A DNA stretch of 64,000 nucleotides from Sphingomonadaceae bacterium (GTDB taxonomy: Bacteria > Pseudomonadota > Alphaproteobacteria > Sphingomonadales > Sphingomonadaceae): NCBI GenBank assembly GCA_002863155.1, contig PKED01000051.1:20044-84043 (forward strand), read 5' to 3'. The translations under genes and the position numbers were made by a program. This document shows, one piece after another, positions 3,405 through 59,857 of this stretch. Below the pieces are notes generated by a model, which worked only from the letters and a program-made list of their open reading frames with translations, had not been told where the DNA came from and searched no databases. The number at the start of each line of letters is the position of its first letter. Positions within the stretch are counted from its first letter, which is position 1.

Positions 3405-4017
3405 GCGCGAAGATGTCGATTTCGGGCCATCCGGCCAGGTCGAGCTCGGCCCGGGCCGGCAGGAAATCGAAGCAGGCCTGGGCCAGCGCGGTCCGCCCCT
3501 CGCGCGCAAGGCGCCGGTCGAGTTCGTCGCGCAGCGCGTGGAGGAAACGCACGTCGGATGCCGCATAGTCCTTCTGCGCATCGGACAGGTCGGGGCCGCC
3601 CCAATCGGACGATTGCTGCACCTTGGACAGTTCCTGGCCCAGCAGCTCGCGCACCAGTTCCTTCAGCCCGTGGCGGTCGGTATAGGTGCGCACCAGCCGC
3701 GACGCGATCTTGGTGCAATAGACCGGCGTGGCCGTCACATGCAGATAATGCCGGATCGCCGCGAGATCGAACCGGGCGAAGTGGAACAGCTTCACCCGGG
3801 CAGGATCACCGAGCACCGCCCGCAGATGCGGTGCGGCATAGTCGCTGCCCGGCGCGAACCGGACAAGATGTTCGTCGCCGCGCCCGTCGGAAAGCTGAAC
3901 GACGCATAGCCGGTCGCGCGGGGTGATCAGCCCCATCGTCTCGGTATCGACGGCGATCGCCGCCCCGGGGGCGAAAACGTCGCCCGGCAGGTCTTCTTCG
4001 TGGAAATGAACGGTCAT
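3397..4017 (-). CDS. Ribonuclease D family 3'-5' exonuclease
   Basis: DEDD exonuclease motifs (AVDTETMGL, YCTKIASRL, DWGGPDLSDAQKDYAASDV). Confidence 0.88.
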   Translation of the reverse strand: MTVHFHEEDLPGDVFAPGAAIAVDTETMGLITPRDRLCVVQLSDGRGDEHLVRFAPGSDYAAPHLRAVLGDPARVKLFHFARFDLAAIRHYLHVTATPVYCTKIASRLVRTYTDRHGLKELVRELLGQELSKVQQSSDWGGPDLSDAQKDYAASDVRFLHALRDELDRRLAREGRTALAQACFDFLPARAELDLAGWPEIDIFAHV

Positions 4018-10618: not shown

Positions 10619-12660
<2,042 letters not shown>

Positions 12661-12687
12661 GCGATGATAGGCCGATTCAGCCGCGCG

Positions 12688-55570: not shown

Positions 55571-55616
55571 TGGAGCGGGCGAAGGGATTCGAACCCTCGA
55601 CCCCAACCTTGGCAAG
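55571..55616 (-). other. tRNA-Gly(GCC) 3' fragment, putative att core of an integrated element
   Basis: tggagcgggcgaagggattcgaaccctcgaccccaaccttggcaag = reverse complement of the anticodon-loop-to-CCA half of tRNA-Gly; the rest of the tRNA is absent. Confidence 0.85.
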
Positions 55617-55742
55617 AAGACCGACGGGCTTTTCTCCAGTACGCTCCACATCGCTATACCACGATAGAAGCTCGATATATCTAGCATTCCAGTTTTCCTT
55701 AATGCGATCAGGATGCCTGAAATGGACTTGCATCTGCTGACA

Positions 55743-55784
55743 ATTTGGTGACAAAAGGTTCGGCAGAGAATTTTGTCACCAAAT
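55743..55784. promoter_or_regulatory. Inverted repeat upstream of integrase 1
   Basis: atttggtgacaaaa (55743-55756) and ttttgtcaccaaat (55771-55784), perfect 14-bp arms just before the int ATG. Confidence 0.8.
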
Positions 55785-55795
55785 GAGGAGTGGGG

Positions 55796-57061
55796 ATGAC
55801 TCCGGTCAAGCTAAACAAGCGCTGCGTCGATAGCCTGCTTCCGCCCTCCAAGGGGCAAGCGGTTCTCTGGGATACCGAGGTACGCGGCTATGGCGTACGT
55901 GTCCTTCCGTCGGGCACAAAGACCTTCATCCTCCAGTATCGCAACCCAGAGGGAATTCAGCGCCGCATCAATATTGGCCGATACGGCGTCCTTACCGTCG
56001 ATCAGGCGCGCGATCAGGCCAAGCTGTTCCTGGCCTCCGTGATCAAGGGAGAAGATCCGGCTGATGAAACACGTCGTGCGCGCAAAGGCATGACGGTCGC
56101 GGAGATGTGCGAATGGTATCTGGCCGAAGCGCGGGCCGGGAACATCTTGGGACGACTGAACCGACCGATAAAGGCATCGTCCCTTGATATGGACGAGAGC
56201 CGTATCAAGACGCACATAATCCCACTCCTCGGAAAGCGCGTGGTGGCGCAGCTGAGCGTCGCCGATGTCGAGCAAATGCAGTCCGATGTTAAGAACGGGA
56301 AAACCGCTAAAGCTCGGACCGGTGGTCGTGGCGGACAGGCGACCGGGGGAGCTGGTGTAGCCTCGCGATGCCTGGGCACGCTTCAAGCGATCATAGGGCA
56401 TGCCAAGCACAAGGGGTTGCTGGCGGCCCATCCAACCCAAGGTGCGAAAAAGCTGGCCAGCGCAAAGCGGACCCGACGGCTGAGCGTCGCCGAGATTGAG
56501 ACGCTGGGTAAGGCAATCGCGTTTGCCGAGCGAAACCACGAAAATCCTGTGGCGCTGGCCGTTCTGAAGACGCTTCTGCTAACCGGTTATCGCCGGGAAG
56601 AAGCCCAAGCCATGCAGAGGTCCTGGGTTAACGCTGCGGGAGGCTTCATCAGTTTCCCGGACACCAAAGGCGGTGCGCAAGTCCGTGCCATTGGCCCTGC
56701 GGCCCTGAAGATCGTCCTGAGCCAGCCAGAAATGCTCGGCAATCCTTATGTCTTCGCATCAGAAACCGGGGCCGGGCCATATACTGCTGTGAGTTCCTGT
56801 CTTGACCGTGTTTGCAAGCTCGCCGGGATTTCGGGCGTCACGCCCCATACCCTTCGGCATACGTTCGGAAGCATCGCAGGCGAACTGGGTTTTTCGGAAC
56901 TGACAATCCGCGCTATGCTCGGTCACGCTTCGCAAAACGTGACGCAAGACTATATCCATATCGACGAAGCGCTGAAGCTGGCTGTTCAAAGGACATCGGA
57001 TGAAATTGCGCGTCTACTCGACTTGGGGACAAAACGTCTTGCAATGATGTCCTATCCATAA
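55796..57061 (+). CDS. Tyrosine-type site-specific integrase (DUF4102/P4-like)
   Basis: LNKRCVDSLLPPSKGQAVLWDTEVRGYGVRVLPSGTKTFILQYR; LLTGYRREEAQAM, HTLRHTFGSIAGELG, LGHASQNVTQDYIH. Confidence 0.96.
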   Translation: MTPVKLNKRCVDSLLPPSKGQAVLWDTEVRGYGVRVLPSGTKTFILQYRNPEGIQRRINIGRYGVLTVDQARDQAKLFLASVIKGEDPADETRRARKGMTVAEMCEWYLAEARAGNILGRLNRPIKASSLDMDESRIKTHIIPLLGKRVVAQLSVADVEQMQSDVKNGKTAKARTGGRGGQATGGAGVASRCLGTLQAIIGHAKHKGLLAAHPTQGAKKLASAKRTRRLSVAEIETLGKAIAFAERNHENPVALAVLKTLLLTGYRREEAQAMQRSWVNAAGGFISFPDTKGGAQVRAIGPAALKIVLSQPEMLGNPYVFASETGAGPYTAVSSCLDRVCKLAGISGVTPHTLRHTFGSIAGELGFSELTIRAMLGHASQNVTQDYIHIDEALKLAVQRTSDEIARLLDLGTKRLAMMSYP

Positions 57062-57140
57062 CCAGCGCCTTGTCCCGATCCTTGTTGGGACTGCCACCGG
57101 CTAGCTGCATCGAGACTCCCGGCGCCCAGTCCATACAAAG

Positions 57141-57166
57141 ACCGGCGCCGTGTCGATGTCGCCGGT
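57141..57166. other. Stem-loop upstream of the Abi gene
   Basis: accggcg-(12 nt)-cgccggt inverted repeat in the 57062-57229 intergenic region. Confidence 0.5.
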
Positions 57167-57229
57167 TACTATAAAATCTGCTTCGGGTGTGGCACTCAAC
57201 ACTCATGGTTGACATATCGGGGGCATTGC

Positions 57230-58177
57230 GTGTCGGGGACAGACTGGAAAAGCTTCGCTGATCAGCTGCAGATTCTGAAGGATCGCGGCTTGACGGTGGG
57301 GGATGATACCCGAGCGATCAGTTACCTCGAGAAGATCGGCTATTATTGCCTTAGTGGCTATTGGTATCCGTTTCGCTCGCCAAAAGCACAGCCCGTCGGC
57401 CTGGTGTTCCGGGAAGACCATTTCCTTCCTGGCTCAACATTCGAGGACGCTGTTGCGCTCTACGCCTTCGATCGCAAGCTGCGGCTCCTGGCGCTCGATG
57501 CGCTGGAACGGATCGAACGAGCCATCCGGGTCGACGTAGCCCACCTGCTGGGCAGGCTCGACTGCTTCGCGCAGTACGACCCCGCCCTACTGCACGGCAA
57601 TTTTGCTCGCAGGGCAATTCCGAAGGGCTACAACGCGGGAAAGACTGAACACCAGCTCTGGCTCGATCACCAGGACAAGCTGATTCACCGTAGCCGGAAG
57701 CAGCATTTCGTTGCCCACAACATGAACAAGCACGGGCGCTTGCCGATCTGGGTGGCGATCGAGATCTGGGATTTCGGCGCCCTTTCGCGGCTCTTTGCCG
57801 GCATGAACGTAAAGGACCAGGATGTCATTGCGGCCAGCTACGGTCTGGGGACGGGACGCGAACTGGAGAAATGGTTGCGAAGTCTGAGCTATCTTCGCAA
57901 CGTCGCAGCGCACCATAGTCGCATGTGGAATGTGAACGTGTTGGAGCTGTCGCCGGTGCCACAGTTCGACCAGAACTGGCAGTCGCTCGCCAATGCGCGC
58001 CCCTTCATGTACTTTTGCATCATGCGGTTTCTGCTGGCGCGGATCAGTCCGAATTCCAGCTGGGGTGAGCGGTTCAAGGCTTTGATGGCGGAGTTCCCCG
58101 AACCTGCAAACAAGGCCGTGACGGCCGCCGATTTCGGGTTGGTTGCAGGCTGGGAGGGATGGCCGCTTTGGGCCTAG
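57230..58177 (+). CDS. Abi_2 family abortive infection protein (AbiF/AbiD-like, HEPN-motif candidate)
   Basis: ISYLEKIGYYCLSGYWYPFR, FEDAVALYAFDRKLRLLALDALERIERAIRVDVAHLL, LRNVAAHHSRMWN; likely GTG start in the ORF beginning 57209. Confidence 0.93.
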   Translation: MSGTDWKSFADQLQILKDRGLTVGDDTRAISYLEKIGYYCLSGYWYPFRSPKAQPVGLVFREDHFLPGSTFEDAVALYAFDRKLRLLALDALERIERAIRVDVAHLLGRLDCFAQYDPALLHGNFARRAIPKGYNAGKTEHQLWLDHQDKLIHRSRKQHFVAHNMNKHGRLPIWVAIEIWDFGALSRLFAGMNVKDQDVIAASYGLGTGRELEKWLRSLSYLRNVAAHHSRMWNVNVLELSPVPQFDQNWQSLANARPFMYFCIMRFLLARISPNSSWGERFKALMAEFPEPANKAVTAADFGLVAGWEGWPLWA

Positions 58178-58188
58178 ACCATCCCCAC

Positions 58189-58239
58189 AAAAGAAAACCG
58201 GCACGTACACATCGCTGTGCAGAGGTGCCGGTCATATTG
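58189..58239 (-). ncRNA. Candidate small structured RNA convergent with the Abi gene (possible RNA antitoxin)
   Basis: Minus strand: ACCGGCAC-CUCU-GCACA-GCGA-UGUGU-AC-GUGCCGGU then UUUCUUUU; preceded by TTGACA and a TATATA-like box. Confidence 0.6.
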
Positions 58240-58245
58240 TGACCA

Positions 58246-58273
58246 TATATATCCATACGAACGCGTTTGTCAA
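58246..58273 (-). promoter_or_regulatory. Putative sigma-70 promoter for the convergent small RNA
   Basis: Minus strand TTGACA (58273-58268), 16-nt spacer, TATATA (58251-58246). Confidence 0.55.
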
Positions 58274-58562
58274 TGAGAGACATTCACGGCACTGCCCCAG
58301 GCACTAGCTGAATCGGAGCGATTCTCGCCGTGGCGCGCTCAGATCAAGGCCTGCGGCACGGCGCCAGCCTGAGGCCAAGCTTCACCCAATGCGCTCTTGC
58401 GACGACTATATATCAGACCCTACAAATCGAGCTCAAGCCCTGTCCACCACCGCCCGTTCTCGGAACATCCCCGAAAAGCCCTAGAAATCTCAGAAAACCA
58501 AGGGTATTCTGCCTTTCGATGGCCGCCCCTGTTCGCTGCTATTTGTCTACAACCGACAGTGA

Positions 58563-58603
58563 GTGTGGGGAAGGTGTGGGGAAGGAGGTGGGCTTCCCCA
58601 CAC
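58563..58603. promoter_or_regulatory. Direct plus inverted repeats upstream of integrase 2
   Basis: gtgtggggaag x2 in tandem (58563-58584) and inverted copy cttccccacac (58593-58603). Confidence 0.8.
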
Positions 58604-58630
58604 TGCGGCTCTCTTAATTGACCTCCAGAA

Positions 58631-59857
58631 ATGTGGGGAACGAGAATGGGCAAACTTACGGCGGTGGCGGTCAAGGCCGCTTTGGCGAATCCGGGCACCT
58701 ATCAGGACGGTGACGGACTTTTCCTGAAAGTTGGAAAAACTGGTGCGGCTTCCTGGCTTTTGCGACTCCAGCGCGATGGCAAACGACAGGATATTGGTCT
58801 GGGTAGTGCGAAGCTGGTGACGCTGGCGGAAGCGCGTGCGAAGGCTGCTGAACTCCGCAAGGCTGTAAAGGTCGAGAAACGCGACGTACTGACGGAGCGG
58901 AAGGACGAGGAAGCCGCCAAGGTCACTTTCCGCGAAGCCGCTACCCAATATCATTCCGAGAACGAAGCTGGCTGGAAAAGCGATGTCTATGGTCGGCAAT
59001 GGCTGGCCAGTCTGGAAAACTACGCCTTCCCGAAGCTTGGCGACATGACGACTGGTGGAATCACTGCCGCCGATATCATCTCGGTCCTCACGCCGATCTG
59101 GCAGGAAATCCCCGAAACAGCCCGCCAGGTTCGGAATCGGATTTGCGCGGTGCTAGATTACTCCCATGCAAAGGGTTGGCGCTCTTCCGAAGCTCCATCA
59201 GGCAATAGCAGCCTCAAGGCAGGGCGAGGGCTGCCGCGACAGATCAAGAAACCGGCAAACCGCAAGGCGATGCCATACGTGGCCGTTCCTCCGTTCCTGA
59301 CCGCGTTGCGCCGCAAACCATCCTATTCGCGTCTGGCGCTAGACCTTCTCATTCTGACGGGCGTTCGCTCGCAGGAAGTGCGGCTCGCGAAATGGGACGA
59401 ATTCGATCTGGACCAGCGCCTTTGGACAATCCCAGCCGAACACATGAAGCGCAGCAGGGCGCACATCGTGCCGCTTTCAGAAGCGGCCTTGGCGGTGCTT
59501 GTGAAGGCGGACGCAATGCGGCTTGAGGGAGCCGAAGTGGTATTCCCCGGCATGACGGGAAAGGCGATGTCCAACATGACGCTGCTCAAGGTCATGCGCG
59601 ACATGCAGGAGCCGTTCCACGTCCACGGTTTCCGCTCCAGCTTCACCGACTGGGCGGCGAACGAAGGCTTCCCCAATGCGGTCGTCGAAGCGGCACTGGC
59701 GCACAAGACGCCTGACGCTGTACAGGCCGCCTATCGCCGCACCACATACCTTGGCACGCCGGATAATCCCGGTGCGCGCGTGAAGCTGATGGAAGCGTGG
59801 GGGAATTATTGCGCGGGTACTGCCGGAGCAAATACGCCGATCAATGAAGGCGGCTAA
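58631..59857 (+). CDS. Second tyrosine-type integrase (DUF4102/P4-like); true start may be the ATG at 58646
   Basis: GKLTAVAVKAALANPGTYQDGDGLFLKVGKTGAASWLLRLQRDGKRQDIGLG; LLILTGVRSQEVRLAKWDEFDL, VHGFRSSFTDWAANE, ALAHKTPDAVQAAYRRTTY. Confidence 0.96.
   Translation: MWGTRMGKLTAVAVKAALANPGTYQDGDGLFLKVGKTGAASWLLRLQRDGKRQDIGLGSAKLVTLAEARAKAAELRKAVKVEKRDVLTERKDEEAAKVTFREAATQYHSENEAGWKSDVYGRQWLASLENYAFPKLGDMTTGGITAADIISVLTPIWQEIPETARQVRNRICAVLDYSHAKGWRSSEAPSGNSSLKAGRGLPRQIKKPANRKAMPYVAVPPFLTALRRKPSYSRLALDLLILTGVRSQEVRLAKWDEFDLDQRLWTIPAEHMKRSRAHIVPLSEAALAVLVKADAMRLEGAEVVFPGMTGKAMSNMTLLKVMRDMQEPFHVHGFRSSFTDWAANEGFPNAVVEAALAHKTPDAVQAAYRRTTYLGTPDNPGARVKLMEAWGNYCAGTAGANTPINEGG

Follow-up and report, generated by a model that had tools for sequence, protein, structure and literature searches.

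The window analysed here, a 64,000-nucleotide stretch of a contig from a Sphingomonadaceae bacterium, carries a gene encoding an Abi_2 protein and, tail-to-tail with it, an RNA unit on the opposite strand whose end lies some 10 nt from the stop codon of Abi_2 (Table 1). The protein matches Pfam Abi_2 (PF07751; E 8.5e-51, 173.3 bits against a curated cut-off of 25.6) and was called AbiD by PADLOC (E 1.2e-55). Its likely start is the GTG at 57230, since it is the point from which L003, a related locus, is homologous, and the structural model has low confidence for the residues before it; a TTG at 57209 is also in frame. The AlphaFold2 model (pLDDT 91.5) gave a single significant fold match in Foldseek, 8VZ6 (E 1.6e-15, TM 0.77/0.83), entitled 'PbAbiF dimer bound to ncRNA', which is also the sole PDB sequence match of the protein (phmmer E 2.5e-32, about 26% identity). 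As modelled, this protein has the fold of the solved AbiF and is an AbiF homologue of the HEPN type; its toxicity and RNase activity can be presumed from this homology.

Table 1. Features of the Abi_2 locus and of the module that carries it (window coordinates)
Feature	Position	Strand	Evidence
Mobile module: tRNA-Gly 3' fragment, integrase, Abi_2, RNA	55571..58443	+	Genome comparison
Last 46 bp of tRNA-Gly(GCC) gene, attachment-site copy	55571..55616	-	100% match to intact tRNA-Gly in G180
Tyrosine integrase of the module	55790..57061	+	Pfam Phage_integrase E 5.2e-13
Abi_2/AbiD-F HEPN protein, presumed RNase toxin	57230..58177	+	Pfam, PADLOC, phmmer, Foldseek
HEPN RNase motif RNVAAH (RxxxxH)	57896..57913	+	R230, N231, H235 invariant in homologue alignments
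Candidate antitoxin RNA (type-A abiF-like), ~52 nt	58188..58239	-	R2 covariance model, covariation, fold z
Hairpin of the RNA	58233-58196	-	U-tract directly after
-10 hexamer TATATA of RNA promoter	58246..58251	-	Sequence; homologous RNAs
-35 hexamer TTGACA of RNA promoter	58268..58273	-	Sequence; homologous RNAs; G093 comparison

The minus strand from 58273 to 58188 reads TTGACA, a 16-nt spacer and TATATA, followed by CAAUAUGACCGGCACCUCUGCACAGCGAUGUGUACGUGCCGGUUUUCUUUUG, and every element of the unit described in the first-pass annotation, from the promoter to the hairpin and U-tract, is present in the sequence. The RNA is composed, in order, of CAAUAU, a 9-bp outer stem (GACCGGCAC/GUGCCGGUU, with the terminal G-U included), a CUC/C internal loop, a 6-bp inner hairpin (U-A and G-U among its pairs) with GCGA as its loop, and a U-tract also serving as the terminator. 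The two-stem fold proposed earlier thus stands, but not its lengths of 8 bp for the outer and 5 bp for the inner stem. Most homologous RNAs are preceded by a sigma-70-like promoter at comparable spacing; a strict consensus promoter scan missed the one in the window because TATATA ends in A. The fold has a z of -3.73, with one of 200 shuffles equally stable, but folding stability on its own is moderate evidence, and the decisive evidence is comparative. The GNRA loop is common to some close relatives only, the others having tri-, tetra- or longer loops. An extra pairing, CACAA/UUGUG, was predicted in the window alone, and since it is gone in a 99%-identical relative (L002), it is probably not functional.

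A hairpin right after a stop codon, with a U-tract on one strand, could be merely a transcription terminator, either of Abi_2 or of a minus-strand transcript, with no antitoxin role. However, the plus strand has neither a U-tract nor a GNRA loop at this position, as the first-pass annotation had pointed out, and therefore the hairpin is not the Abi_2 terminator. On the minus strand the RNA starts only about 7 nt after the -10 box, which leaves no room for another transcribed feature. Moreover, the internal loop CUCU/AC, which a terminator does not need, is near-invariant among the homologous RNAs (alignment A3).

These homologues come from the flanks of Abi_2 genes drawn from the same order, plasmids, 80 species-level genomes and viral contigs, and flank inspection showed that the same kind of RNA adjoins nearly every Abi_2 homologue. 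Thirty-one RNAs parse identically, as 6 nt, a 9-bp stem, CNCU, an apical hairpin, A(C/A/U), the returning stem and a U-rich tail. The apical hairpin, short and self-paired, is the only highly variable part. Alignment of the flanks had been suggested beforehand as a check for conservation and covariation, and both were found: 28 RNAs lying beside Abi_2 homologues contain 29 compensated cells, in the outer and inner stems, against 4.8 in shuffled alignments. In this alignment 94.9% of the pair cells are standard pairs, seven pairs are changed on both sides, and the covariation score is 0.316 versus 0.127 shuffled, while slid controls collapse.

Energy-only ranking of hairpins gave wrong structures at some loci, and covariance models were used instead. 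The R2 model, built from 25 homologous RNAs with the window, L003 and L005 left out, scores the window RNA at 64.5 bits with an E-value of 4.2e-19. The R1 model, run over 420 kb from 75 sources, gave 51 matches at E<=1, all of them at an Abi_2 gene, and 22 come from loci outside the training set. The E-values of these models are rough owing to the shortened calibration. When the RNA was searched first, 401 whole genomes of the order returned 11 matches, and six of the seven above 38 bits lie at Abi_2 genes (in the window and in genomes G180, G093, G299, G097 and G377); among 387 genomes of the class, matches in G545, G776 and G766 are also at Abi_2 genes. The weak matches L143-L145, L155 and L156 are probably due to chance or to ordinary terminators. 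RNAs of this type with no Abi_2 in the fetched flanks were also seen in bacterial genomes (L140:1501-1559, L142:1501-1553 and L154:1501-1551), and these copies may be remnants, chance, orphan antitoxins or RNAs with other uses. The RNA of the window is not a chance hairpin but a real conserved RNA gene, and the comparative evidence supports the first-pass proposal of a dedicated ncRNA gene convergent with a gene for a HEPN Abi_2/AbiF toxin.

The position analysis with R1 placed 43 RNAs 3' of and convergent with Abi_2 and five 5' in sense (L006, L033, L035, L037 and L096), the latter 30-56 nt before the aligned coding region. Two further matches lie in loci where the ORF end was over-extended, and none elsewhere. 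The convergent RNAs end within about 35 nt of the Abi_2 stop codon, except for the second copy in L062, where two type-A RNAs stand in a row behind one Abi_2 gene (3430-3486 and 3663-3711). A convergent, abutting RNA might act as an antisense on the 3' end of the Abi_2 mRNA, in a type I-like toxin-antitoxin system or by transcriptional interference, and indeed the end of the RNA model overlaps the stop region by 7 nt in 15 of the 43 convergent loci, where a read-through mRNA would be complementary to it. However, antisense action explains the convergent arrangement only: with five loci upstream in sense, the RNA is not antisense throughout the family, as a type I antitoxin would be. The compensatory changes, in addition, preserve the RNA's own fold, and the homologous toxin PbAbiF was solved with a bound ncRNA. 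We thus give an antisense RNA very little credence as the main explanation, although an additional antisense layer may exist on top of a structured antitoxin. The presence of the same RNA both upstream in sense and downstream convergent fits a trans-acting structured antitoxin and not a cis-antisense. It also speaks against a mere terminator, as does the fact that the RNA tracks the protein tree, and we consider that explanation highly improbable.

In the tree of 114 Abi_2 proteins, type A (45 rows) needs 4 changes against 35.8 when shuffled, type B (39 rows) needs 2 against 32.7, and a single change accounts for the arrangement (5' sense or 3' convergent); the RNA-type labels were taken from R1 matches and regular expressions, and the 14 unlabelled rows include several with a visible RNA. 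The convergent clade is over-represented, as only the 80 best relatives were retained from the genome scan. This distribution indicates that RNA type and toxin are co-inherited. The type B RNA (AACACGGCCCC...GGGGUUUUU; L028-L031 and L074-L118) is convergent with Abi_2 in a sister clade and has no match in Rfam, RF03085 included. A third type, also unmatched in Rfam, was observed upstream of distant Abi_2 genes (L010, L018-L024); it is similar to RF03085, except that CUCU and AUGC are separated by an additional hairpin. On a Rhizobium plasmid, an alphaproteobacterial ar14 sRNA lies upstream of an Abi_2 gene (L030:1242-1365, minus strand).

The first-pass annotation had suggested a search of this region with the Rfam abiF motif; RF03085 (threshold 37 bits) has no match in 57900-58500 even at E<=10, and a permissive Rfam search of the RNA region found nothing relevant. 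RF03085 was likewise without a match in 12 type-A loci, in four carriers of type-A RNAs and in 61 relatives. The search was shown to work in genomes G146 and G308, and the family matches RNAs beside distant Abi_2 homologues of the same bacterial family (L012, 47 bits; L017, 50 bits). Over the whole window, the sole match at Rfam's gathering score is a TPP riboswitch (12541-12662, minus strand). Compared by eye, the RF03085 abiF RNA and the window RNA have in common the outer stem, CUCU on its 5' side, AY before the 3' strand, the U-tail and the linkage to Abi_2; the window RNA differs from RF03085 in lacking its 3' bulge of ~6 nt and in having a longer apical hairpin. By Rfam's criterion the window RNA is not a member of RF03085 but a variant unlisted in Rfam. 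Judging from these common sequence features, it is likely that it is related to RF03085 and works like an abiF RNA.

Known systems offer three points of comparison. The PbAbiF-ncRNA complex (PDB 8VZ6; Prevotellaceae AbiF with AbiFr) has the same protein family, full-length fold, RNxxxH site and a linked ncRNA, although its protein is about 26% identical and the likeness is judged on the protein; bulge nucleotides of AbiFr have been reported to silence the RNase (review PMC12737573). In the AbiF_Cd-RCd22 pair of C. difficile, an Abi_2 HEPN toxin is likewise linked to a structured RNA antitoxin with a housekeeping-type promoter and a terminator, and RCd22 neutralises AbiF by direct binding (PMC12373285). 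However, RCd22 lies upstream in sense, has about 98-132 nt and contains two RF03085 motifs, whereas the window RNA is single, of about 52 nt and convergent. ToxIN of type III also opposes an RNA antitoxin to an RNase toxin, and has RNA mimics in phages (pseudo-ToxI), but its toxin belongs to another family and ToxI consists of pseudoknot repeats arrayed upstream of the toxin (PMC3475682). The Abi_2 locus shares with type III systems a structured RNA gene beside the gene of an RNase-fold toxin; it lacks their upstream, same-operon tandem repeats and the terminator before the toxin, the RNA being in single copy, downstream and convergent.

Taking these data together, we are fairly confident that the locus encodes a type III-like toxin-antitoxin or abortive-infection pair, in which a HEPN RNase toxin is held by the convergent ~52-nt RNA. 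The RNA is very probably, given its conserved fold and linkage, the antitoxin of the adjacent AbiF-type toxin. The product of the Abi_2 gene would be a relative of PbAbiF that acts, as a dimer, as a HEPN RNase toxin. Transcription of the RNA would start at a sigma-70 promoter of its own and stop at the RNA's own hairpin. Once folded, the RNA would bind the toxin directly and neutralise it, keeping the RNxxxH site inactive. If infection halted transcription, or the RNA were lost, the toxin would be freed, cleave RNA and halt growth, which would provide phage defence.

Instead of being a plain inhibitor, such an RNA could serve AbiF as a regulatory guide or activator, by which the protein senses or selects a target. 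AbiF is related to the HEPN domains of Cas13, 'potential RNA-guided capabilities' have been proposed for it (PMC12165695), and the RNA-protein linkage is tight. Yet the highly variable part of the RNA is confined to the short, self-paired apical hairpin, with no unpaired guide segment, and RCd22 acts as an inhibitor (PMC12373285). Moreover, phages carry the RNA alone, as described below, which would make little sense for an activator of the toxin. A guide or activator thus seems most unlikely to us, and the inhibitory antitoxin is the role that we favor.

The Abi_2 gene and the RNA sit on a mobile module. G180, which belongs to a different genus, carries the block 55571-58443 at 98% identity, and there an intact tRNA-Gly lies 59 kb from the module in the same orientation. 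In G093 (69-70% identical), only 57231-58273 can be aligned, from the gene through the -35 box of the RNA, and the block ends exactly at 58273. G299 (L005/L027/L147) has a 206-bp frameshifting deletion in its Abi_2 gene while the RNA and its promoter are intact, which is how a toxin accompanied by its antitoxin would be expected to decay. The locus had been proposed as a possible sphingomonad representative on a mobile island; the mobile module is borne out, but the sphingomonad label is too narrow, as type-A RNAs occur in Alpha-, Beta- and Gammaproteobacteria and in single MAGs labelled as other groups. A second integrase element, at 58433-59857 of the window, starts with the final 17 bp of a tRNA-Tyr gene; G299, at its own tRNA-Tyr, matches the segment 58433-59276 with 99.9% identity.

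The most interesting lead is the occurrence of the RNA in phages. Viral contigs were scanned with two core patterns that left the outer stem mostly free, which yielded 44 stretches (L161-L204), about 33 of them scoring >=29 bits with R1; some 10 pattern matches without the outer stem and at <=19 bits were taken as chance. About 30 phage contigs carry a type-A RNA without Abi_2 (e.g. L199:1351-1399 and L189:5807-5852), and only one of 31 viral records tested whole has an Abi_2 gene, an absence that is provisional because most records are fragments. The outer stem covaries in the phage copies as well (26 compensated cells versus 8.4 shuffled). Nearby genes encode terminase, portal, SSB, a UvsX-like recombinase and ribonucleotide reductase, and the RNA stands directly behind the major head protein gene in L175 (3786-3843) and L176. 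A tandem pair of type-A RNAs was seen at L176:4961-5059. When the phage and window RNAs were compared by BLAST with named phages and plasmids, there was no match. In the case of ToxIN, phages are known to carry mimics of a type III RNA antitoxin (PMC3475682), and cyanophage S-CREM1 is reported to contain an abiF sRNA (PMC9964418). The phage copies seen here may be decoy antitoxins. On balance, we lean slightly toward the view that type-A RNAs form a widespread AbiF antitoxin clade, tail-to-tail with its toxins and unrecognised by Rfam, and that diverse phages carry stand-alone decoys suppressing AbiF abortive infection.

CRISPR-Cas13 has been proposed to descend from AbiF-ncRNA pairs. A compact RNA of about 52 nt with a defined internal loop offers a minimal test case for how an RNA may restrain a HEPN RNase, and the type-A covariance model closes a gap in RNA annotation. 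The orphan copies in phages, in turn, make counter-defence against AbiF directly testable.
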